A stretch of DNA of 45,495 bases. It comes from Paraburkholderia sp. Tr-20389. GTDB lineage: Bacteria; Pseudomonadota; Gammaproteobacteria; Burkholderiales; Burkholderiaceae. Made by a program: the position numbers and the translations under genes. Under the pieces are notes generated by a model that saw only the letters and a list, made by a program, of their open reading frames with translations, was not told where the DNA came from and searched no databases. The DNA lies in assembly GCF_017104565.1 (NCBI RefSeq), contig NZ_JAAGPD010000072.1:1-45495 (forward strand), read 5' to 3'. Below are positions 24,629 through 35,873 of this stretch, one piece after another (position 1 is the stretch's first letter; each line of letters starts with the position of its first letter).

Positions 24629-24683
24629 GCCATCGCTTGCAGTGCTCCTGGCGGCGCAAGGCCGCGGCCAGGAGACACTGCGC

Positions 24684-25880
24684 ATGGATCTGAATTATTC
24701 CCCCTCCGACGACGCATTCCGCGCCGACATTCGCGCCTGGCTCGAAGCGAATCTTCCTGATGCGCTGCGCGACAAAGTCCTCAATCACAAACGTCTGAAT
24801 CGCGATGACTACGCGAACTGGCACGCTCTGCTCGGCAAGCGCGGCTGGTCGGCGCCTGCATGGCCAGCGGAGTACGGCGGCCCGGACTGGAACGCGACGC
24901 AGCGTCATATCTGGGACGAGGAGTGCGCCCGTCTCGGCGCGCCGGCCGTATTGCCGTTCGGCGTCTCGATGGTCGCGCCCGTGCTGATGAAATACGGCAG
25001 CGAAGCGCAGAAGCGGCACTATCTGCCGCGCATTCTCGACGGCACCGACTGGTGGTGCCAGGGCTATTCCGAGCCGGGCTCGGGTTCGGACCTCGCATCG
25101 CTGCGCACGCGTGCCGAACGTGTCGGCGACCACTATGTCGTCAACGGTCAGAAGACCTGGACGACGCTCGGCCAGCACGCCGACATGATGTTCTGTCTCG
25201 TGCGCACCGACAGCGGCGCGAAAAAGCAGGAAGGCATTTCATTCCTGCTGATCGACATGAAGACGCCCGGCATCACCGTGCGGCCCATCATCACGCTCGA
25301 CGAGGATCACGAAGTCAACGAAGTGTTCTTCGAGGACGTGAAGGTGCCGGTCGAAAACCTCGTCGGCGACGAGAATCGCGGCTGGACTTACGCGAAGTAT
25401 CTGCTGGGCCACGAACGGACGGGCATCGCGCGCGTTGGACAGTCGAAGCGCGAACTCGCGTTTCTCAAGCAACTCGCGCTGAATCAGAAGAAGAACGGCA
25501 AGCCGTTGTTGCACGATCCGCTCTTCGGCGCAAAAGTCGCGAGTCTCGAAATCGAATTGATGGCGCTCGAAGTGACGGTGCAGCGTGTCGTCGCGAACGA
25601 GGCGGGCGGACGCGGGCCGGGACCGGAGGCGTCGATGTTGAAGATCAAGGGCACGGAAGTGCAGCAAGGGTTGACCGAGCTGATGTTCGAAGCGGTCGGC
25701 CCGCTCGCGGCGCCATTCGACGCGCCGTTCCTGGAGAGCGAACGGGCGCACAGCATCACCGGCGACGACGATGCCGCGCCGCTTGCCGCGTACTACTTCA
25801 ACTACCGCAAGACGTCGATCTACGGCGGCTCGAACGAAATTCAAAAGAACATCATCGCGCAGATGATTCTCGGACTGTGA
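24684..25880 (+). CDS. Acyl-CoA dehydrogenase, candidate FAD-motif half of a heteromer
   Basis: The 398-residue protein has the acyl-CoA dehydrogenase fold and would oxidise an acyl-CoA at the alpha-beta bond. It shows SEPGSGSD (129-136), NGQKTWTT (154-161) and a C-terminal GGSNEIQ (381-387). It lacks the QxxGGxG motif that normally precedes that end. The next gene has QLHGGMG but lacks SEPxxGSD and the GGxNEIQ end. The ATG at 24684 follows AGGAGA. This complementarity resembles the alpha2-beta2 enzymes of actinobacterial sterol side-chain degradation. The substrate is unknown. Confidence 0.88.
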   Translation: MDLNYSPSDDAFRADIRAWLEANLPDALRDKVLNHKRLNRDDYANWHALLGKRGWSAPAWPAEYGGPDWNATQRHIWDEECARLGAPAVLPFGVSMVAPVLMKYGSEAQKRHYLPRILDGTDWWCQGYSEPGSGSDLASLRTRAERVGDHYVVNGQKTWTTLGQHADMMFCLVRTDSGAKKQEGISFLLIDMKTPGITVRPIITLDEDHEVNEVFFEDVKVPVENLVGDENRGWTYAKYLLGHERTGIARVGQSKRELAFLKQLALNQKKNGKPLLHDPLFGAKVASLEIELMALEVTVQRVVANEAGGRGPGPEASMLKIKGTEVQQGLTELMFEAVGPLAAPFDAPFLESERAHSITGDDDAAPLAAYYFNYRKTSIYGGSNEIQKNIIAQMILGL

Positions 25881-25890
25881 GGAGCGGCGC

Positions 25891-27018
25891 ATGAACTTCA
25901 ATTTCACCGACGAACAGCAGCAATTCGCCGACGCGCTGCGCCGCTATCTCGACAAACATTACGCGTTCGAAGCGCGCCAGGCGATCGTGCGCTCGGAAGC
26001 AGGTGTATCGAACGAACATTGGTCGGCATTCACCGAACTCGGCCTGACCGCGTTGCCCGTGCCCGAAGCGCAGGGCGGTTTCGACGGCGGCACGGTCGAC
26101 ATGCTGGTCGTGATGCAGGAGCTGGGACGCGCGCTGGTCGTCGAGCCGTACTGGTCGACGGCCGTTGGGATCGAGGCGCTGAAGCTCTCAGGCACGGGCG
26201 AGGGCGACGATGCCGCGTTGCTCGAGCGTGCGGCGCAAGGCGAGATCAGGCTGGCCGTCGCGTTTCATGAACCGGACGCGCGCTACGACCTGTTTTCCAT
26301 CGACACAACGGCGACGCGTCAGGGCGACGGCTATGCGTTGAGCGGAGCGAAATCGGTCGTGCTGCATGGCGCGCAGGCCGACTACTGGATCGTGCCCGCG
26401 CGCCTCGACGGAGAGATCGCGCTGTTCGTGGTCGCACGCGATGCGGCGAACGCGCAGATCGCGGATTACCGGACGATCGACGGCCAGCGTGCCGCGACGC
26501 TCGCATTCAACGCGACGCCGGCACGCAAGCTGAACGGCGCACATGCGGGCGCGGCAGCGCTGGAACATATCGCCGACTACGGCATCGTATTGCTGTGTTC
26601 GGAAGCGGTCGGCGCGCTCGATGCGCTGAATCATGCGACCGTCGAATACACGAAGACCCGCCAGCAATTCGGCGTGCCGATTGCGCGCTTCCAGGCGCTG
26701 CAGCATCGGATGGTCGAGATGCTGATTCATGCCGAGCAGGCGCGTTCGGCCACGTATCTCGCGGCCGTGCGCTACGCCAGCGAAGACACCGACGAGCGCC
26801 GGCGCGCGGTATCGGCTGCCAAGGTGCGCGTGGGGCAAGCCGCGCGCTTCGTCGGCCAGCAGGCAGTGCAACTGCACGGTGGCATGGGCGTGACGAACGA
26901 GGTCGCGGCCGCGCATCTGTTCAAGCGTCTCGCTATCATCGAAACCACGCTCGGCGATGTCGATCATCACCTTGCGCGCTTTGCCGCGCTGCCGGGATTC
27001 GCAACGGCCGACGCGTGA
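25891..27018 (+). CDS. Acyl-CoA dehydrogenase-like partner subunit
   Basis: The 375-residue protein starts 10 bp after the preceding dehydrogenase. Its N-terminal domain (NFTDEQQQFADALRRYLDKH) and C-terminal QLHGGMG (327-333) with TNEVAAAHLFKR are ACAD features. The flavin and substrate loop that usually reads TEPxxGSD is HEPDARYD here (126-133), and the terminal GGTxEIQ is missing. It is therefore unlikely to bind FAD fully on its own and probably completes the active site with its neighbour. The ribosome-binding site is GAGGAGCGG. Confidence 0.87.
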   Translation: MNFNFTDEQQQFADALRRYLDKHYAFEARQAIVRSEAGVSNEHWSAFTELGLTALPVPEAQGGFDGGTVDMLVVMQELGRALVVEPYWSTAVGIEALKLSGTGEGDDAALLERAAQGEIRLAVAFHEPDARYDLFSIDTTATRQGDGYALSGAKSVVLHGAQADYWIVPARLDGEIALFVVARDAANAQIADYRTIDGQRAATLAFNATPARKLNGAHAGAAALEHIADYGIVLLCSEAVGALDALNHATVEYTKTRQQFGVPIARFQALQHRMVEMLIHAEQARSATYLAAVRYASEDTDERRRAVSAAKVRVGQAARFVGQQAVQLHGGMGVTNEVAAAHLFKRLAIIETTLGDVDHHLARFAALPGFATADA

Positions 27019-27050
27019 GCGCCCGCCAACACATGCAAACGAGGTAAAAG

Positions 27051-27509
27051 ATGGATTTGGCTTACGAGGATATGGAAGTCGGCACGACACACGAGGTCGG
27101 CTCGCACACGTTCACGCGCGACGAGATCATTCGGTTCGCGGAGCAGTTCGATCCGCAGCCTTTCCACGTGAGCGATGCAGGCGCAGCCGCGTCGCCCTAC
27201 GGCACGCTGATCGCGAGCGGGTGGCATACGTGCTCGGTGATGATGGGCATGCTCGTGCGTAACGTGCTCGCGGGGTCGACGTCGATGGGGTCGCCCGGCA
27301 TCGACGATCTGCGCTGGCTGAAACCCGTACGTGTCGGCGACACGATCCGCATGACCAACAGCGTGCTCGACAGGCGCGTATCGGCGAGCAAGCCGGATCG
27401 CGGCATCGTGTCGACGGAATGGCGGGGATTCAATCAGCATGGCGAACTGGTGATCACCGTGCGATCGAAGTCGCTCTTCGGCTTGCGTCATCCGGGATCC
27501 GCTGTATGA
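27051..27509 (+). CDS. MaoC-like hot-dog hydratase (first of a pair)
   Basis: The 152-residue single hot-dog protein has the MaoC dehydratase pattern FAEQFDPQPFHVS (Asp34 and His39 as the catalytic pair) followed by SPYGTLIASGWHT. It would hydrate an enoyl-CoA. A GAGGTAAAAG site precedes the ATG. Its TGA overlaps the next MaoC gene's ATG (ATGA). Two consecutive short MaoC proteins suggest a heterodimer, since eukaryotic and sterol-pathway hydratases often join two hot-dog domains. Confidence 0.85.
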   Translation: MDLAYEDMEVGTTHEVGSHTFTRDEIIRFAEQFDPQPFHVSDAGAAASPYGTLIASGWHTCSVMMGMLVRNVLAGSTSMGSPGIDDLRWLKPVRVGDTIRMTNSVLDRRVSASKPDRGIVSTEWRGFNQHGELVITVRSKSLFGLRHPGSAV

Positions 27510-27970
27510 CGCCCGAACTGACGCTCGGTTCGGCTGACGACGTGCGTGCGCTCGTCGGCCAGTTGCCGCGCGTGAGCGATTGGGTCGAGGTCGATCAGGC
27601 GAGCGTCGATCGTTTTGCTGTGGCGACGGGCGATCATCAGTGGATCCATGTCGACCCCGAACGCGCGAAACGGGAATCGCCGTTCGGCGGACCGATCGCG
27701 CATGGTTTTCTGACGCTGTCGTTGATCCCTGCACTGCTCATCGACACATTCCGCTTCGAGCAGCGCATGGGCGTCAACTATGGGCTGAATCGTGTGCGCT
27801 TCACGGCGCCCGTGCCCGTCGGCTCGCAGTTGCGCGCGAGCTTCGCTGTCGCGGGCGTGACGGACGTCGAGGAGGGCGGCGTGCAGATCGCGTGGAATGT
27901 GACGCTCGAGCGGCAGGGCAGCGAGCGCGCAGTGTGTGTCGCGGAGTTCATTACGCGGCACTATTTCTAG
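27506..27970 (+). CDS. MaoC-like (R)-enoyl-CoA hydratase (second of a pair)
   Basis: The 154-residue protein carries the full R-hydratase motif ATGDHQWIHVDPERA (Asp43, His48) and FGGPIAHGFLTLSL. It would add water to a 2-enoyl-CoA to give the (R)-3-hydroxyacyl-CoA. The start at 27506 overlaps the stop of the first MaoC gene by four bases, so the two are translationally coupled and probably made in equal amounts. It is the last gene of the rightward operon and converges on yfcG. No T-run terminator is visible in the 38-bp gap. Confidence 0.88.
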   Translation: MTPELTLGSADDVRALVGQLPRVSDWVEVDQASVDRFAVATGDHQWIHVDPERAKRESPFGGPIAHGFLTLSLIPALLIDTFRFEQRMGVNYGLNRVRFTAPVPVGSQLRASFAVAGVTDVEEGGVQIAWNVTLERQGSERAVCVAEFITRHYF

Positions 27971-28008: not shown

Positions 28009-28710
28009 TCAGTGCTTCGCGTACTGCGTCGCGCCGAACAACACTTCCTTCGCCTTGTCGTCCATCAGCGGCACACGCGCCGACGCCAGCACTTCGACAC
28101 CGCGTTGCACGGCGGGGCGCGCGGCGATCTCTTCGTGCCAGCGCTTCACGTTCGGAAATTCGTCGATCTGCAGGCCCTGGTTTTGCCACGAGCGGGTCCA
28201 CGGGAACGTTGCGATATCGGCGATCGTATAGTCGTTGCCTGCCAGATAGCGCGTCTTGCCGAGTTGCGTATCCATCACGCCGTAGAGGCGTTTGGCTTCG
28301 TTCGTATAGCGGTTGATCGCGTATTCGATCGGCTGCGGCGCGTAGATGCGGAAGTGGTGAGTCTGGCCGAGCATCGGACCGATGCCGCCCATCTGGAACA
28401 TCAGCCATTGCAGCGTTTCGTAACGCGCGGCGGGGTCCGTGGGCAGGAATTTGCCCGTCTTCTCCGCGAGGTAGATCAGGATCGCGCCGGATTCGAACAG
28501 CGAGAACGGCGCACCGTCTGGGCGCTTTGGGCCGTCGCTGTCGACGATGGCGGGGATTTTGTTGTTGGGGCTAATCGCCAGGAAGTCCTTGGCGAACTGG
28601 TCGCCGGCGCCGATGTTGATGGGGTGTGCTTTGTAGTCGAGGCCTGTTTCCTCGAGCATGATGTGGATTTTGTGGCCGTTCGGGGTGGCCCAGCTGTAGA
28701 CGTCGATCAT
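28009..28710 (-). CDS. yfcG: Glutathione-dependent disulfide-bond oxidoreductase, YfcG type
   Basis: The 233-residue nu-class glutathione transferase probably reduces disulfides with bound glutathione in the cytoplasm. The N-terminal thioredoxin fold has MIDVYSWATPNGHK, with the Thr-Pro-Asn active-site loop of YfcG. The stretches LAISPNNKIPAIVD, SLFESGAILIYLAEKTG and GGIGPMLGQTHHF follow the E. coli protein closely. The ATG at 28710 follows AAAGGAG on the minus strand; longer upstream reading runs into repeat DNA. It stands alone, with the inverted repeat region upstream where its promoter must lie. Confidence 0.9.
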   Translation of the reverse strand: MIDVYSWATPNGHKIHIMLEETGLDYKAHPINIGAGDQFAKDFLAISPNNKIPAIVDSDGPKRPDGAPFSLFESGAILIYLAEKTGKFLPTDPAARYETLQWLMFQMGGIGPMLGQTHHFRIYAPQPIEYAINRYTNEAKRLYGVMDTQLGKTRYLAGNDYTIADIATFPWTRSWQNQGLQIDEFPNVKRWHEEIAARPAVQRGVEVLASARVPLMDDKAKEVLFGATQYAKH

Positions 28711-28861
28711 TGGTGTGCTCCTTTGGTTTATGTCTGCGACGTAGTCGCCATTCTTGCCTTCTCGGCGCGGGCTTCGCCTTTGTTGAGTTTCCGCTCCGCG
28801 GTTTCGGTGGCCTCCGCGGTTTGCTTCTGGTTTGCTAGTGTTGCCCCTGTGCGGGGCGGCA

Positions 28862-28893
28862 CTTACTTTCTTTGCCGCCGCAAAGAAAGTAAG
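28862..28893. repeat. Small palindrome inside the left repeat arm
   Basis: CTTACTTTCTTTGC (28862-28875) and its exact complement (28880-28893) flank CGCC. It is a 14-bp perfect hairpin, AT-rich against the local GC-rich sequence. Confidence 0.9.
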
Positions 28894-29365
28894 CAAAGAA
28901 AGCGGGCTAACACCGCCAGCCCATGTTCTTGCCTGCGGGCCCCCAACGGGTCCCGCACTTCACACGGCAACACTTTGTTTTGCGCCCGTTGCCAGCGCCT
29001 TGAACAGCCGCATCACCCACTCCAATCACCCGCAGACAGCCAGCGGCAGCGACTCGCCTGCGACGCCCAGGTGGCAAACTGTGTGTAGGCCGTCGCAATC
29101 GACGTGCACCACTCCGGACTGAAAAGCGGGATCGGTGTCGTAGGAGCGCGAACGCATACGGTGCGATGGCCTACACACAGTTTGCCACCTGGGCGGCCGT
29201 GGACGTCTGGTAACGCGGGCCGTGACGCGGGAAAGTGAAATGGGTGATGCGAATCAAAGAGCGTTGGCAACGGGCGGGAAATAGCGCGATGCCGGGTGGA
29301 GTGCGGGACCGGTTGGGGGCCCGCAGGCAACAACTAGGATTGGCGGTGTGAGCCCGCTTTCTTTG

Positions 29366-29586: not shown

Positions 29587-30813
29587 TCAATCAGCCTGCT
29601 GGGCATACTTGCCCAGCTCAATCTTCGCGATGGCATTGCGATGAACCTCATCAGGCCCATCAGCAAACCGCAACCACCGCGCGGTGGTATACGCATAAGC
29701 GAGCGGAAAGTCCTCGCACAAACCCGCAGCGCCATGCGCCTGAATCGCCCAATCGATCACGGTGCAAGCCATATTAGGCGCCACAACCTTGATCATCGCG
29801 ATCTCACCGCGCGCGCCCTTATTGCCGACAGTGTCCATCATGTAAGCGGTCTTCAGCGTCAACAGCCGCGCCTGCTCGATCAAACAACGCGCCTCGGCAA
29901 TACGCTCCTGAGTAACGGTCTGCGCCGCGAGCGGCTTCCCGAACGCAACCCGCTGCAAAGCACGCTTCGACATCAGTTCAAGGGCGCGCTCAGCAAGCCC
30001 GATCAACCGCATGCAATGATGGATACGCCCCGGCCCCAATCGCCCCTGCGCGATTTCAAACCCGCGTCCTTCGCCCAGCAGCATGTTCGCGGCAGGCACG
30101 CGCACATCGTCGAGCGTGATCTCCATATGACCATGCGGCGCGTCGTCATAACCGAACACCGTCAGCGGACGATGCACGGTAATGCCCGTCGCGTCGGCAG
30201 GCACGAGGATCATCGATTGCTGTTGATGACGCGGCGCGTCAGGATCCGTCTTGCCCATCACGATCAGCAGCTTGCAGCGCGGATCGCCCGCGCCCGACGA
30301 CCACCACTTGTGGCCGTTGATCACATACGAATCGCCGTCGCGCACGATACTCGTCCGGATGTTGGTCGCATCGGATGAAGCGACTTCCGGCTCGGTCATC
30401 AAAAACGCCGAACGGATCTGGCCTTGCAACAGCGGCTCCAGCCATTCGCGCCTGTTCTCTTCGCTGCCATAGCGCTCGATGGTTTCCATGTTGCCGGTGT
30501 CGGGCGCGCTGCAGTTGAACACCTCGGGCGCCCAAGGCACGCGGCCCATGATTTCGCACAGCGGCGCGTATTCGAGATTCGTCAAACCCGCACCGCGCTC
30601 CGAATCGGGCAGAAACAGATTCCAGAGACCGGCCTCGCGCGCCTGCTGTTTCAGGCTTTCGATCAGCTCCGTCGGCACCCACGCATTGCCAGCCTGACGG
30701 TTGCGCGCCACTTCGGCGGAAAAGGCCTGTTCGTTCGGATAGATGTGCTCGTCGAAGAAGGCGAGCAGCTTGTCGCGCAATGCCTGAACCTTCGGGGTGT
30801 AGTCGAAATTCAT
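29587..30813 (-). CDS. ACAD10/ACAD11-like acyl-CoA dehydrogenase
   Basis: The 408-residue flavoprotein strongly resembles the dehydrogenase domain of mammalian ACAD11. Shared stretches include [33 protein letters not shown] (140-155), [30 protein letters not shown] and [10 protein letters not shown]. In mammals and in the Pseudomonas levulinate pathway (LvaC) this type acts with an APH-family kinase on 4-hydroxyacyl-CoAs. Here the kinase gene lies 66 bp upstream, supporting the same reaction. A GAGGGCAAG site precedes the ATG. It is the last gene of the five-gene leftward operon, next to the repeat. Confidence 0.92.
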
Positions 30814-30879
30814 CTTGCCCTCGTGGATGACATCGAATCTGTTCTACAACATGAATGTGTCGCAGCGTCGCCCGGTCAA

Positions 30880-31986
30880 TCAACGCACTTTCTGCGCGTA
30901 GCGCCACGCGAGTTCGGCCATCGGACGCGCCCGGCGTCCCGCGTCGAGCGCCTGCTCGCTCGCTGCCGTGCCGTCGACGACGCGTTTCATGATCCCTTGC
31001 AGAATCGCAGCAATGCGGAACATGTTGTACGCGAGGTAGAAGTTCCAGTCGCCGCGGATCGTCAGGCCGGTGCGCTCGCAGTAGCGTTGCACGTACTGTG
31101 CCTCGTCGGGAATGCCGAGCGCGCGCCAGTCGAGACCCGCAATGCCGCGAAACTGCGCGGGATCGACGTGCCATGCCATGCAGTGATACGCGAAGTCGGC
31201 GAGGGGATCGCCAAGCGTCGACAGTTCCCAGTCGAGCACGGCGAGCACGCGTGGTTCGTGCGGATGAAAGATCAGATTGTCGAGCCGGTAATCGCCATGC
31301 ACGACGGACGCACGCTCGCCCGTGTCGGCAGGCATATGCTGCGGCAGCCAGTCGATCAGTCGATGCATCGCATCGATCGGCTCCGTTTCCGAAGCCTGAC
31401 ACTGCTTGCTCCATCTGCCGATCTGTCGCGCGAAGTAGTTGCCGGGCTTGCCATAGTCCGCAAGCCCGGCCTTGTCGACATCGACGGTATGCAATGCGGC
31501 GATCACGCGGTTCATCTCGTCGTAGATCGCGGCGCGCTGTGCGGACGTCATGCCGGGCAGCGACGGGTCCCACAGCACGCGGCCCTGGACGAACGCCATC
31601 ACATAGAACGCGCGGCCGATCACGCTTTCGTCTTCGCACAGCGCGAGCATCGTCGCGACGGGCACATCGGTGTCGCGCAGCGCGTGCATCACGCGATACT
31701 CGCGTTCGATCGCGTGTGCGGACGGCAGCAGTCTCGCGGACGGACCGGGTTTCGCGCGCATCACATAGGCGCGCGTCGGCGTGACCAGCTTGAAGGTGGG
31801 ATTCGACTGGCCGCCCGCGAACTGTTCGAGCGTCAGCGGTCCAGCGTAGCCGTCGACATGTTGCGCGAGCCATGCGGACAACGCATCGATGTCGATGCGC
31901 TGCCGTTCGCTGACGGGCCGCGTGCCTTCGAAGGCGGTGTAATCGGTTTGCGTCGTCGATCCGGCTGGTGTCGCGTCGTGCGGCAT
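30880..31986 (-). CDS. APH-family kinase, ACAD10/11 N-domain type (LvaA-like)
   Basis: The 368-residue protein has an aminoglycoside-phosphotransferase kinase fold but is not an antibiotic resistance gene by context. Motifs: GGQSNPTF (58-65), KPGPSARLLPSAHAIEREYR (Lys79, Glu95), the catalytic loop HGDYRLDN (230-237, Asp232 and Asn237) and LDWELSTLGDPLADFAYH (Asp252). The LLPSAHAIEREY stretch is diagnostic of the kinase domain fused to the dehydrogenase in mammalian ACAD10/11. Predicted role: phosphorylation of the 4-hydroxyl of a 4-hydroxyacyl-CoA. GGAGGAG precedes the ATG. Confidence 0.9.
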   Translation of the reverse strand: MPHDATPAGSTTQTDYTAFEGTRPVSERQRIDIDALSAWLAQHVDGYAGPLTLEQFAGGQSNPTFKLVTPTRAYVMRAKPGPSARLLPSAHAIEREYRVMHALRDTDVPVATMLALCEDESVIGRAFYVMAFVQGRVLWDPSLPGMTSAQRAAIYDEMNRVIAALHTVDVDKAGLADYGKPGNYFARQIGRWSKQCQASETEPIDAMHRLIDWLPQHMPADTGERASVVHGDYRLDNLIFHPHEPRVLAVLDWELSTLGDPLADFAYHCMAWHVDPAQFRGIAGLDWRALGIPDEAQYVQRYCERTGLTIRGDWNFYLAYNMFRIAAILQGIMKRVVDGTAASEQALDAGRRARPMAELAWRYAQKVR

Positions 31987-32019
31987 GTCTCCTCCGTTGG
32001 ATGATCGAATGATCGACTG

Positions 32020-32742
32020 CTAGCTGCCTCTGCTTTGAATGAATTGCGCGTAAAGCATTTCCATCGACGTATTGCGGACGTCGCGATGCAGCGGCGACAG
32101 CGCGGCGTGATTGATGAGCCGCACGACCCAGTCGCGCGGCGCGGCGCCTACGTCGAGCGCATTGATACAGCCGGTCGCCTGCGCGAGATGGCCGAAGAAC
32201 GTGCGGCCGCCCGCGGTGATCGCGTGCGAGAGAAGCGCGCGATTGACGCCGCCATGCAGCACGAGCAGCACGACGTCCCATGTTCGATCTTCACGCAATG
32301 CAGCGAGCGCAGGCAGCACGCGATCGAACAGTTCGCCGATTGTCTCGCCGCCGAGAAACCGCACGTCCTCCGAGACGATGCCGTCGAACGCGCTGAGAAA
32401 AGCCGCTTCAAGATCGGCGAGCGGAAGCGAACCCGGCTTGCCGCTGCGGATTTCTTCCCACGCGGGTTCGATCTCGACAGCGACATCGGCGCCCATTTGC
32501 GCGAGCACGCGTTCTGCCGTTTCGACCGTGCGCGGCAGGCCGCTCGCAACCACGCGATCGAAGCGCACGTCTTGTTCCGCGAACGCGCGACCGGCGGCGT
32601 CCGCCTGCGCGCGGCCTTTCTCGTTGAGGGGCACGCGCTCCGGGTCGATCGCGCTGCCCGACGCATCGAAGTACGTGACGTCGCCGTGCCGCATCAGATA
32701 GATGCGGCGGCGCTTCGGCAACTGATAAGCCGGCGTGCTCAT
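32020..32742 (-). CDS. Histidine phosphatase superfamily protein
   Basis: The 240-residue protein has the phosphoglycerate mutase-like motif LMRHGDVT (His19 and neighbours), ASGLPRTVETAERV and the second catalytic histidine in VLHGGVNRALLSHA. It probably removes a phosphate from a small substrate through a phosphohistidine. Its ATG overlaps the stop of the crotonase gene by four bases, and the kinase gene follows 33 bp downstream, so it belongs to the acyl-CoA operon. A phosphatase beside a hydroxyacyl-CoA kinase suggests it acts on the phosphorylated intermediate or an off-pathway product. That is inference. Confidence 0.87.
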   Translation of the reverse strand: MSTPAYQLPKRRRIYLMRHGDVTYFDASGSAIDPERVPLNEKGRAQADAAGRAFAEQDVRFDRVVASGLPRTVETAERVLAQMGADVAVEIEPAWEEIRSGKPGSLPLADLEAAFLSAFDGIVSEDVRFLGGETIGELFDRVLPALAALREDRTWDVVLLVLHGGVNRALLSHAITAGGRTFFGHLAQATGCINALDVGAAPRDWVVRLINHAALSPLHRDVRNTSMEMLYAQFIQSRGS

Positions 32743-33527
32743 CGGTAGTTCGGTGCGCGCTTTTCGAGGAACGCCGTGATGCCTTCGAGCCCGTCGCGAT
32801 GATGCAGCGACGCGACGAAGCTGTCGCGCTCCGCGACGAGATGCTCAGGCAGCGACTGTTCGCCCGCGGCGGCGATCAGGCCTTTGATGCGTGCCTTCGC
32901 ATTGGGCGATACCTTGCCGAGATCGTCGGCCCAGGCGATGGCCGCATCGCGCGCGGCGCCCGGTTTCGCGAGCCGGTTCACGACGCCGAGTTCATGCAGG
33001 CGAGGCGCACCGATCGGCTTGCCTTCGATCAGCACTTCCGTCGCGATCTGACGCGGCAGCGCGCGCGCGAGGAACCACGAGCCGCCGCCATCGGGCGTGA
33101 GGCCGACGCGTGCGTACGACATCACGAACTTGGCGTCGTCGGCGGCGACGATCAGGTCGCACGCGAGCGCAAGCGAAAACCCCGCGCCCGCCGCCGCGCC
33201 TTCGACGGCGGCGATCACCGGCTTCGACGACGCCTGCAGCGCGGCAATCCATTCGCCGAGCAGATCGATGCTCTGTGCCTGCACGGACGGATCTTTCGCG
33301 CGGTTCTCGAGCAGCCGGTTCAGATTGCCGCCCGCGCAGAAAAAGTTGTCGGCGCCCGTGATCACGATTGCGCCGATCGACGCATCGCGCTCGGCCGTGT
33401 TCATCGCTTCGATGCCGGCCGCGTACATGTCCGGGTGCATCGCGTTGCGCGCGCCCGGGTTCGAGAGCGTCAGCACGAGCGTCGATTCGCTTTCGGTGGG
33501 GCGTGAGGCGAGCAGTTCTGCGGCCAT
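32739..33527 (-). CDS. Enoyl-CoA hydratase/isomerase family protein, PaaG-like
   Basis: The 262-residue crotonase-fold protein keeps the oxyanion-hole segments FFCAGGNLNRLL and AVEGAAAGAGFSLALACD. Neither catalytic glutamate of true enoyl-CoA hydratases is present. The first position reads GAGFSLA instead of GGxCELA, and the second lies in SYARVGLTPDGGGSW. The PDGGG aspartate is the pattern of PaaG-type isomerases, so isomerisation rather than hydration is more likely. The ATG at 33527 shares one base with the upstream gene's stop (TAATG), and its own stop overlaps the phosphatase start. Confidence 0.88.
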   Translation of the reverse strand: MAAELLASRPTESESTLVLTLSNPGARNAMHPDMYAAGIEAMNTAERDASIGAIVITGADNFFCAGGNLNRLLENRAKDPSVQAQSIDLLGEWIAALQASSKPVIAAVEGAAAGAGFSLALACDLIVAADDAKFVMSYARVGLTPDGGGSWFLARALPRQIATEVLIEGKPIGAPRLHELGVVNRLAKPGAARDAAIAWADDLGKVSPNAKARIKGLIAAAGEQSLPEHLVAERDSFVASLHHRDGLEGITAFLEKRAPNYR

Positions 33528-35107
33528 TATGCGTGCTCCTGAGTGTCGTGGTTGTTGTCGTTGTTGTCGGCGGCATCGCGTTGTGTGAGCGGCATGCCGA
33601 GTTGCGCGCGACGCGCGAGCCACGGTGAAGGACGATAGCGCGGGTCGCCGAGCACGCTGAACATGTTGCGCAGAATCCTCAGGATGGTTTGCGCGCCGAG
33701 CGCATCGCCGAGTGCCAGCGGTCCGCGCGGATAGCCGAGGCCGAGCGTCACCGCGAGATCGATGTCTTCTGGCGACGCGATCTGGCGCTGCGCAATATCG
33801 CAACCGATGTTGACGATCGTCGCCACCACGCGTTGCGCCACGAAGCCCGTCGAATCGCGGATCACGGTGACGGGCGCACCGTCGTGCGAGAAGAGGGCGT
33901 GGGCGGTATCGCGTGCGGCGCGCGTCGTCGCGGGCGTCGTCATCAGCGTGCGGCGCTGTGCGTCGACGAGCGGGAAGAGCGTATCGATGGCGACGACGCG
34001 GCCTGCGTCCAGGCCTTCATCGACCGCGGCCGTCGTTGCATCGAAACCGAGCGGCGTCACGACGATCAGTGAATCGGCGGCGGGCGTCGCGCCGTCGTCG
34101 ACGGCGACGCCGGCCTTCGCGATCAATGCGAGCACGGCGTCGCGTGCAGCGGGCACGCGTGCGCTGACCCACACGCGCTTCGGCAGTTCAGTCGGCGCGG
34201 GCAGTTCGGCGGGCGCCTGCTGTTTGCCGTCGACATACACGTAGAAGCCTTCGCCTGCCTTGCGTCCGATCAGGCCGCCCGCGAGGCGCGTGCCCGTGAT
34301 CGGCGACGGCGTGAAGCGCGGCTCTTCGTAGAACTGGTGATAGATCGATTCCATCACGGGATGCGACACGTCGAGCGCGGTCAAATCCAGCAACTCGAAC
34401 GGCCCAAGACGGAAGCCCGCTTGCTCGCGCATGATGCGGTCGATGTCGACGAAGCTCGCGACGCCTTCATCGGCTACGCGCAGGCCTTCCGTGTTCATAC
34501 CTCGGCCCGCGTGATTCACGATGAAGCCGGGCATGTCCTTCGCGCGTACGGGCGTGTGGCCCATGCGGCGCGCGAGATCCATCAGCGCGTTGCCGGCGGC
34601 GGGATCGCTGCGCAAGCCGTCGATCACTTCGACGACCTTCATCAGCGGCACCGGATTGAAGAAGTGGTAGCCGAGCACGCGCGACGGATCCGTGCACGCG
34701 GCCGCAATCGCGGTGATCGACAGTGACGATGTGTTCGACGCGAGGATGCAGCGCTCGCTGACGATGCCTTCCAGTTCCTTGAAGAGCGCGCGCTTCACGT
34801 CGAGCTTTTCGACGATCGCTTCGACGACCAGGTCGCAGTCCTTGAGTTCTTCGATCGCGTTGGCGCCCGTCACGCAGGCGAGCGCCGCGAGCGAACGCGA
34901 GCTGTCGAGCTTGCCTTTGGCGACGAGCTTCGAGAACGTGTCGGACAGATAGTCGCGCGCCGCACCGATCGCTGCGGCGTTTGTGTCGTAGAGCTTGACC
35001 TGGAGGCCCGCGAGCGCGGCAATCTGTGCGATACCGCGTCCCATCGCACCCGTGCCGACGATGCCGACAGTCTCGATGCTGTACTGGCGAGAGGTGTTCG
35101 ATGACAT
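33527..35107 (-). CDS. 3-hydroxyacyl-CoA dehydrogenase, PaaH-like, two C-terminal domains
   Basis: The 526-residue protein would oxidise an (S)-3-hydroxyacyl-CoA with NAD. It has an N-terminal Rossmann motif, GIVGTGAMGRG (15-25), the catalytic SNTSS (124-128) and His148 in GYHFFNP. Two 3HCDH C-terminal domains follow, one with AGGLIGRKAGEGFYVY and one with GLGYPRGPLALGDALG. This matches the long PaaH type rather than the roughly 290-residue form. The tail is rich in Asn, Asp and His. A GTG at 35119 is in frame, but GGAGTGAG fits the ATG at 35107. It is the first gene of the leftward operon. Confidence 0.92.
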   Translation of the reverse strand: MSSNTSRQYSIETVGIVGTGAMGRGIAQIAALAGLQVKLYDTNAAAIGAARDYLSDTFSKLVAKGKLDSSRSLAALACVTGANAIEELKDCDLVVEAIVEKLDVKRALFKELEGIVSERCILASNTSSLSITAIAAACTDPSRVLGYHFFNPVPLMKVVEVIDGLRSDPAAGNALMDLARRMGHTPVRAKDMPGFIVNHAGRGMNTEGLRVADEGVASFVDIDRIMREQAGFRLGPFELLDLTALDVSHPVMESIYHQFYEEPRFTPSPITGTRLAGGLIGRKAGEGFYVYVDGKQQAPAELPAPTELPKRVWVSARVPAARDAVLALIAKAGVAVDDGATPAADSLIVVTPLGFDATTAAVDEGLDAGRVVAIDTLFPLVDAQRRTLMTTPATTRAARDTAHALFSHDGAPVTVIRDSTGFVAQRVVATIVNIGCDIAQRQIASPEDIDLAVTLGLGYPRGPLALGDALGAQTILRILRNMFSVLGDPRYRPSPWLARRAQLGMPLTQRDAADNNDNNHDTQEHA

Positions 35108-35225: not shown

Positions 35226-35873
35226 ATGATCCAGTTGCATGGTTTTGCGCTGTCCAACTATTACAACAAAGTCAAGTTTGCGCTGCTCGAATTCGGCATT
35301 CCGTTCGAGGAAGTGGTCGTGCAGCCGAGTCAGGATGAGGCGTTTCTCGCGCACTCGCCGCTCGGCAAGGTGCCGTACATCGTGACGGAGCACGGCAGTC
35401 TGTGCGAGTCGCAGGCGATCATCGAATATCTGGCGGCCGTCTATCCCGACAAGGCGATTTTCTCGCCCGATCCGTGGGAAGCCGCGAAGGAGCGCGAACT
35501 GATTACGTTCGTCGACGTGCATCTCGAACTGACGGCGCGCAATCTGTACAAGCAGGCGTTCTTCGGCGGCACGATCACCGACGCCACCAAAGGGCGCATC
35601 GAGAAACTGCTGATCCACCACATTCACGGCTTCAGGCGGCTGGCGGCGTTCACGCCGTATCTGCGCGGCGAGCGCTTCAGCATCGCGGACGTCGCGGGCT
35701 TCGTGAGCCTGCCGCTCGTCGGCATGGCGACGCAAGCCATTTACGGACGCGATTTTCTGCTCGACGTCGGGATCGACTGGAAGCCTTACGTGAAGACGCT
35801 CAATGCGCGGCCTGCCGCGCAGCGCGTGACGGAAGACCGCAAGGCGTATATGGAAGCGCAAAAGAAGAAGTGA
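35226..35873 (+). CDS. Glutathione S-transferase family protein
   Basis: The 215-residue soluble protein has an N-terminal thioredoxin-like domain with MIQLHGFALSNYYNKVKFAL, LGKVPYIV (the cis-proline) and ESQAIIEYLA (glutathione gamma-Glu contact). An all-helical C-terminal domain contains ERFSIADVAGFV, the usual GST N-capping box. The active-site Ser/Tyr/Asn cannot be assigned surely by eye; Ser10-Asn11 is the likely site. AGGGAGAC precedes the ATG. It is divergent from the PaaH-like gene across 118 bp, so shared regulation is possible. Substrate unknown. Confidence 0.87.
   Translation: MIQLHGFALSNYYNKVKFALLEFGIPFEEVVVQPSQDEAFLAHSPLGKVPYIVTEHGSLCESQAIIEYLAAVYPDKAIFSPDPWEAAKERELITFVDVHLELTARNLYKQAFFGGTITDATKGRIEKLLIHHIHGFRRLAAFTPYLRGERFSIADVAGFVSLPLVGMATQAIYGRDFLLDVGIDWKPYVKTLNARPAAQRVTEDRKAYMEAQKKK

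Follow-up and report, generated by a model that had tools for sequence, protein, structure and literature searches.

Acyl-CoA dehydrogenases of the ACAD10/11 type have had their chemistry assigned in mammals only recently. In vitro work has shown the kinase and elimination steps with mammalian ACAD10/11 and with a pair of Burkholderia proteins (Paquay 2024 PMC11342911). The latter, Q63VL0 and Q63VL1 of Burkholderia pseudomallei, were each reported to stand in for the corresponding part of ACAD10 in vitro, with 4-hydroxyhexanoyl-CoA as the substrate. A phosphatase role was also considered there for the HAD domain of ACAD10, whose activity was negligible. In mouse ACAD11, R626, H634, and R637 hold the 4-phosphate and D753 is the catalytic base (Rashan 2025 PMC12440821). 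In addition, a histidine phosphatase lies beside an LvaA homologue in place of LvaB in Pseudomonas citronellolis, and it was suggested to act on 4-phosphovaleryl-CoA (PMC6692424). Meanwhile, a crotonase of Paraburkholderia bryophila, H281DRAFT_04594, is important on phenylacetate, has S118 and M135 in place of the hydratase residues, and is a candidate for the missing oxepin-CoA hydrolase (Price 2022 PMC9007349). Here, we analyzed a stretch of 45,495 nucleotides (hereafter the window) on contig NZ_JAAGPD010000072.1 of Paraburkholderia sp. Tr-20389, whose genome is 9.0 Mb long. The subject is an operon of five genes on the minus strand.

Our proposal, with a probability of roughly 0.6, is that the five genes form an operon for acyl-CoA salvage around a split ACAD10/11 system, in which a histidine phosphatase would clear unprocessed phospho-acyl-CoA and a crotonase would isomerise its substrate or open a ring. 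The features of the operon are as follows.

33527..35107, minus strand: 3-hydroxyacyl-CoA dehydrogenase (HADH), two-domain long form (NCBIfam PRK08268, 745 bits against a cut-off of 508)
32739..33527, minus strand: crotonase-fold enzyme, 'oxepin-CoA hydrolase, alternative type', with an isomerase-like active site (NF046063, 386.5 bits against a cut-off of 300)
32020..32742, minus strand: histidine phosphatase (branch 1), candidate phospho-acyl-CoA phosphatase (PF00300, E 1.1e-32)
31987..32019, minus strand: 33-nt gap with GGAGG ahead of the kinase start (read from the sequence)
30880..31986, minus strand: predicted 4-hydroxyacyl-CoA kinase, aminoglycoside phosphotransferase (APH) type (ACAD10/11 kinase domain, LvaA-type; PF01636)
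29587..30813, minus strand: predicted 4-phosphoacyl-CoA eliminating acyl-CoA dehydrogenase (ACAD10/11 dehydrogenase domain, LvaC-type; human ACAD11 2wbi, E 9e-145)

Among solved structures, the kinase was closest to 3dxp (E 1e-182) and to the mouse ACAD11 kinase domain (E 1e-77), followed by 9o56 (1e-50) and then by two structures at 1e-10 to 1e-9. The best named APH model reached only E 2.3e-8, with 33.9 bits against a cut-off of 205. Furthermore, the catalytic residues Asp and Asn are retained in the kinase, as are the Arg that precedes the alphaC Glu and the equivalent of the CoA-pocket Arg176 (VHGDYRLDN, ERE, and ARQ in the alignment); the alphaC Arg was counted at position 84, whereas R86 is named in PMC12440821. 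For the dehydrogenase, human ACAD11 (2wbi, E 9e-145) and 4hr3 (5e-144) were the closest structures and share the motif GRVHHAMR. The next match, mouse ACAD11 aside, is without this motif and scored about 7e-37. In the alignment, the equivalents of R626, R631, H634, R637, and D753 are all found in the dehydrogenase, and those of R626, H634, R637, and D753 also in its paralogue on contig C7 (59% identical). In both proteins the phosphate-site residues sit within one 14-residue stretch or a near copy of it, and the Asp sits within ADGPDEVH. The genome has 21 other matches to acyl-CoA dehydrogenases, of which 11 (nine elsewhere and two in the window) served as controls. The His/Arg pair occurred in none of these 11, two of which were too short to show D753. 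No HAD domain was found in the kinase or the dehydrogenase. Judging from every sequence comparison made, the two proteins are genuine ACAD10/11 (LvaA/LvaC) relatives, which agrees with the earlier note on this DNA, where they were likened to the separately encoded halves of ACAD10/ACAD11. That note had also named a grouping with choline or aminoglycoside kinases as one of two results that would speak against it. The kinase groups with ACAD10/11 instead, and it has the diagnostic residues; thus this objection falls away.

The operon itself is also well defined. From HADH, the gene order on the minus strand runs through the crotonase, the histidine phosphatase, and the kinase to the acyl-CoA dehydrogenase. 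HADH and the crotonase overlap by 1 nt (TAATG), and the crotonase and the phosphatase by 4 nt (ATGA). The phosphatase and the kinase are separated by 33 nt, and the kinase and the dehydrogenase by 66 nt; the GGAGG in the former gap is probably the ribosome-binding site of the kinase. All five open frames were placed in their Pfam families far above the cut-off. To estimate conservation, we used the best 80 of 183 loci encoding a relative of the phosphatase, and all five genes were found in the same order in 72 of the 80. Among the exceptions, four loci (L212, L226, L242, and L268) come from truncated stretches, and the other four (L267, L270, L276, and L283) are without HADH within the 6-kb flank. 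In pairs against the window (seven loci; six for HADH), the ratio of nonsynonymous to synonymous substitution rates (dN/dS) ranged from 0.04 to 0.31 for the five genes and from 0.15 to 0.31 for the phosphatase, so purifying selection acts on all five genes in the compared pairs. The order kept in 72/80 loci, together with a dN/dS below 0.31 for every gene, indicates that the arrangement did not arise by chance. Thus, the overlapping five-gene operon described in the earlier note is real, although that note counted five genes and described only four of them, leaving the histidine phosphatase unnamed. A scan for promoters and terminators stayed near the shuffled sequences (2 versus 1.0 and 4 versus 5.6).

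In the salvage reading, the kinase would phosphorylate the 4-hydroxyl of a 4-hydroxyacyl-CoA to give a 4-phosphoacyl-CoA. The atypical acyl-CoA dehydrogenase would then eliminate the phosphate, with flavin adenine dinucleotide (FAD) as a transient hydride carrier, to give a 2-enoyl-CoA. This product would be hydrated by another hydratase, not by the crotonase of the operon, and HADH would act later in the same turn of beta-oxidation. Phospho-acyl-CoA left by the dehydrogenase would be hydrolysed by the phosphatase, which may thereby protect the CoA pool. The crotonase may move a double bond or open an oxepin-type ring on a separate, perhaps aromatic-derived, substrate. The kinase and elimination steps are supported by published assays of relatives and by the residues compared here; we infer the substrate and the roles of the phosphatase and the crotonase from the sequence. 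The natural substrate may be a lipid-derived 4-hydroxy acid, as suggested in the earlier note, or another compound.

The histidine phosphatase has its nearest named relatives in Burkholderia sp. Ac-20365 and Paraburkholderia species (82-85%). The RHG and HGG motifs occurred in 80/80 relatives and the Arg pattern in 79/80, with SGMPR in the remaining one. R18, H19, G20, R71, E97, and H163 were invariant in 33 aligned sequences, and we take the RHG, the second His, the Arg, and the acid to be the catalytic residues. The protein scored below the cut-off for alpha-ribazole phosphatase (CobC; 72.8 versus 162.9 bits) and was only weakly similar to any solved structure (best E 3.5e-6). Its fold predicted from the single sequence had a mean predicted local distance difference test score (pLDDT) of 39.7 and was not used.

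The linkage of phosphatases to this kinase family is not limited to the window. There are eight PF00300 matches in the 9-Mb genome, two of which (on contig C20) look like parts of one gene. With a threshold of E <= 1e-30 against the window kinase, the genome has only two such kinases, and each directly adjoins a histidine phosphatase. By our arithmetic estimate, random placement of both phosphatases beside the kinases would have a few chances in a million. The second phosphatase, on contig C7, is divergent and belongs to a different subgroup. Its locus (L077, 8262-12087) includes the histidine phosphatase, a kinase 50% identical to that of the window, a short-chain dehydrogenase, the dehydrogenase paralogue with 59% identity, and then a LysR regulator.

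To survey the linkage more widely, 299 Pseudomonadota genomes were searched. Kinase matches at E <= 1e-35 were found in 87 of them; at 1e-30, a search of 100 genomes from the order gave matches in 26. Each genus with a match was represented by one genome, all kinase places of which were kept, giving 90 loci including the window. A histidine phosphatase on the same strand was found within 5 kb in 26/90 loci and within 1.7 kb in 22/90, and an ACAD10/11-type dehydrogenase within 5 kb in 52/90. The phosphatase-linked loci were spread over several branches of the kinase tree, which requires at least 10 changes of the linked state (computed with 25/90 loci linked, one linked locus having been miscounted). 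In addition, the C7-type phosphatase occurred at 49 places in 47 of the 299 genomes; 25 of these places had such a kinase within 4 kb, and a kinase was present somewhere in 45 of the 47 genomes (genome kinship uncorrected). The window-type phosphatase was rarer (7/299 genomes at E <= 1e-12); two of the seven had it beside the kinase, and two others were weak matches. In L168 (365-2214), it adjoins a CoA-transferase III family gene (racemase-like), and there is no kinase.

The window and C7 subgroups stand apart in the phosphatase tree (56 rows, L290 left out). The approximately unbiased (AU) test, run on 38 of the 56 rows after dropping L112, L146, L097, L287, and 14 others, did not reject a single clade of kinase-linked phosphatases against three paralogues of the same genome (p = 0.447); therefore, we do not claim that the two subgroups were recruited independently. 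In L198 (5644-8844), and also in L092 and L094, the phosphatase, a protein of 103-104 residues, the kinase, and a short-chain dehydrogenase form a row. The small protein has an SCP2 sterol-carrier domain (Pfam, L198), and it may carry acyl-CoA in this chemistry. These genomes look like Pseudomonas, a guess based on their gene content and group codes.

Based on these results, the phosphatase may remove the phosphate from unprocessed phospho-acyl-CoA. A protective or regulatory role fits better than a pathway step, because the dehydrogenase itself releases the phosphate. This idea is not wholly new, given the proposal for P. citronellolis (PMC6692424). In the open-licence literature, judged by titles and the openings of abstracts, no assayed phospho-acyl-CoA phosphatase turned up. 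A phosphatase repeatedly encoded beside the kinase is a direct candidate for avoiding the trapping of CoA as phospho-acyl-CoA.

Several observations weigh against the salvage reading. Within 5 kb, 64/90 kinase loci have no phosphatase, and among the 25 loci with the kinases most like that of the window, the phosphatase is linked in only five. In L085 (6254-6973) and L087 (6227-6946), a regulator lies between the crotonase and the kinase, in the place of the phosphatase; that of L085 has a cyclic nucleotide (cNMP)-binding domain and a Crp-type helix-turn-helix (HTH) domain (Pfam). The phosphatase is therefore not essential to the chemistry. For the C7-type phosphatase, 24 of the 49 places are not near a kinase. 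In three of the other five genomes, these three belonging to two genera of another class, the window-type phosphatase occurs without the kinase and adjoins a CoA-transferase III-like gene (a Pfam CoA-transferase III in L168 and a look-alike in the other two); such a neighbour again points to acyl-CoA metabolism. The sample of 80 loci is one lineage of related genera, because all its records are named Paraburkholderia, Caballeronia, or 'Burkholderia sp.' Finally, Q63VL0 and Q63VL1 are probably orthologues of the window pair, judging from their neighbouring accessions and the same family, and we count the indirectness of this link on the same side.

The crotonase is the second unusual member of the operon. 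E164 in the rat numbering is a catalytic residue of enoyl-CoA hydratase. E144 and Q162 of the same numbering are also given as catalytic (PMC9007349). In the crotonase of the window, as in the counterpart from P. bryophila, the residues found are Ser118, Met136, and Tyr138. Thus the canonical hydratase residues are absent, Ser118 and Tyr138 standing at the two glutamate positions, and no Glu was found at 118 or 138 in 10/10 aligned linked crotonases. Position 118 is Ser in 78/80 loci and another letter in two. D146 aligns with the Asp of IPDCGGTW in Escherichia coli PaaG (4fzw chain C), which we take to be catalytic in PaaG, and both Ser118 and this Asp were kept in 10/10 aligned linked crotonases. 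Taken together, the residues of the crotonase resemble those of an isomerase or ring-opening crotonase more than those of a hydratase. The description 'PaaG-like crotonase' in the earlier note therefore holds for the active-site pattern, but the protein is without the hydratase glutamates and scored below the PaaG cut-off (TIGR02280, 153.9 versus 345.15 bits).

In the genome of the window, the crotonase is the sole NF046063 member above the cut-off among 31 matches. One of 25 matches in the P. bryophila genome (G388, via L263) and one of 56 in Paraburkholderia xenovorans LB400 were likewise above it, with coordinates inside the operon in both. H281DRAFT_04594 is apparently the operon crotonase of P. 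bryophila, since S118 agrees, whereas the Met found here at 136 is numbered 135 in PMC9007349. The earlier note had suggested that the crotonase, together with HADH, could carry the product onward. This is doubtful for hydration, and the enzyme as hydratase of the pathway was weakened as a candidate by Ser118 and Tyr138. Because the glutamates are missing and the apparent counterpart in P. bryophila is required for growth on phenylacetate, hydration of the product is probably the work of another enzyme. Through it, the operon links ACAD10/11 chemistry to a crotonase with a proposed oxepin-CoA hydrolase role in Paraburkholderia.

This link raises the question of whether the operon serves mainly phenylacetate catabolism, the crotonase opening oxepin-CoA while HADH, the kinase, the dehydrogenase, and the phosphatase handle hydroxylated acyl-CoA side products. 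The single NF046063 member in the genomes of the window and of P. bryophila would fit, as would the importance of H281DRAFT_04594 on phenylacetate and its lack of the same catalytic residues (PMC9007349). No fused PaaZ was found above the cut-off in the genome of the window, and HADH, although below the PaaH cut-off (TIGR02279, 426.6 versus 669.4 bits), is the best PaaH match there. However, the section of PMC9007349 considered here names H281DRAFT_04594 and not the kinase, dehydrogenase, or phosphatase, and its PaaH candidate is H281DRAFT_00361. A PaaG above the cut-off lies on another contig (C12), where the neighbours are paa-like by eye, and H281DRAFT_04594 is only the apparent operon gene, with S118 in agreement and the Met at 136 here against 135 in PMC9007349. 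On balance, we regard a main role in phenylacetate catabolism as unlikely. A related version, in which the crotonase acts on the ring, the ACAD10/11 pair dehydroxylates 4-hydroxyacyl-CoA by-products, and a dedicated phosphatase clears phospho-acyl-CoA that cannot be eliminated, seems rather improbable to us. If it were true, the phosphatase would join the kinase and the dehydrogenase as a third enzyme in ACAD10/11 chemistry, one that has been used repeatedly.

The operon could also be a mixed one, in which separate acyl-CoA pathways share a promoter and no common substrate, the phosphatase being a housekeeping enzyme for sugar or nucleotide phosphates. The existence of kinase loci without the phosphatase and of phosphatase relatives without the kinase would agree with this, as would the weak similarity of the phosphatase to solved structures (best E 3.5e-6). 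Nevertheless, the genes overlap, their order is kept in 72/80 loci, and across several families of the phylum a divergent second type of phosphatase is linked to this kinase family as well, which makes a mixed operon quite unlikely. As for a levulinate (lva) pathway with the phosphatase standing in for LvaB, as suggested for P. citronellolis beside its LvaA homologue (PMC6692424), a phosphatase was found within 5 kb in 10/14 loci with distant, LvaA-like kinases (including L096). The window kinase, on the other hand, stands apart from the LvaA-like group in the kinase tree, and a search within 6 kb of it, using a profile built from the C7 gene, found no LvaD-type short-chain dehydrogenase, which weakens the levulinate reading. 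As the earlier note rightly pointed out, there is no levulinate-type synthetase among the five genes (Pfam); LvaE-type synthetase, LvaB, and LvaR are not among them, and no genome-wide profile search was made for these three. L077, with its kinase, short-chain dehydrogenase, and phosphatase, fits a levulinate-type pathway better than the window operon does. A levulinate operon in the window is thus very improbable, and we retain the salvage operon as the preferred reading.

Glutathione S-transferase-like genes lie on either side of the operon, at 28009-28896 (minus strand) and 35226-35873 (plus strand). In addition, two acyl-CoA dehydrogenases and two MaoC-like hydratases form a row at 24642-27970 (plus strand), following genes that by eye look like the last ones of a nuo (complex I) operon. 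This row would be a separate acyl-CoA pathway adjoining the five-gene operon.

Compared with known systems, the window pair shares the kinase and dehydrogenase families and the tested diagnostic residues with mammalian ACAD10/ACAD11 (PMC11342911; PMC12440821). However, the window has two separate proteins, and its operon adds a histidine phosphatase, a crotonase, and HADH. With LvaA/LvaC of the Pseudomonas lva operon, the pair would share the kinase plus dehydrogenase chemistry, but the window has no LvaD-type reductase nearby, and its kinase falls in another subgroup than the sampled LvaA-like loci. In the P. citronellolis cluster, a phosphatase adjoins the kinase as well (PMC6692424). The crotonase is like H281DRAFT_04594 in scoring above the family cut-off (NF046063) and in having the hydratase residues replaced; the function of the latter was predicted from fitness data, and the section of that paper considered here does not discuss the operon (Price 2022 PMC9007349). 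The Q63VL0/Q63VL1 pair is of the same family and probably orthologous to the window pair; the surrounding operon, the phosphatase, and the crotonase go unmentioned in the passages of PMC11342911 considered here. Thus, the kinase/dehydrogenase core is already known, because a Burkholderia pair was already shown to act on 4-hydroxyhexanoyl-CoA, and its combination with the phosphatase and the crotonase is new.

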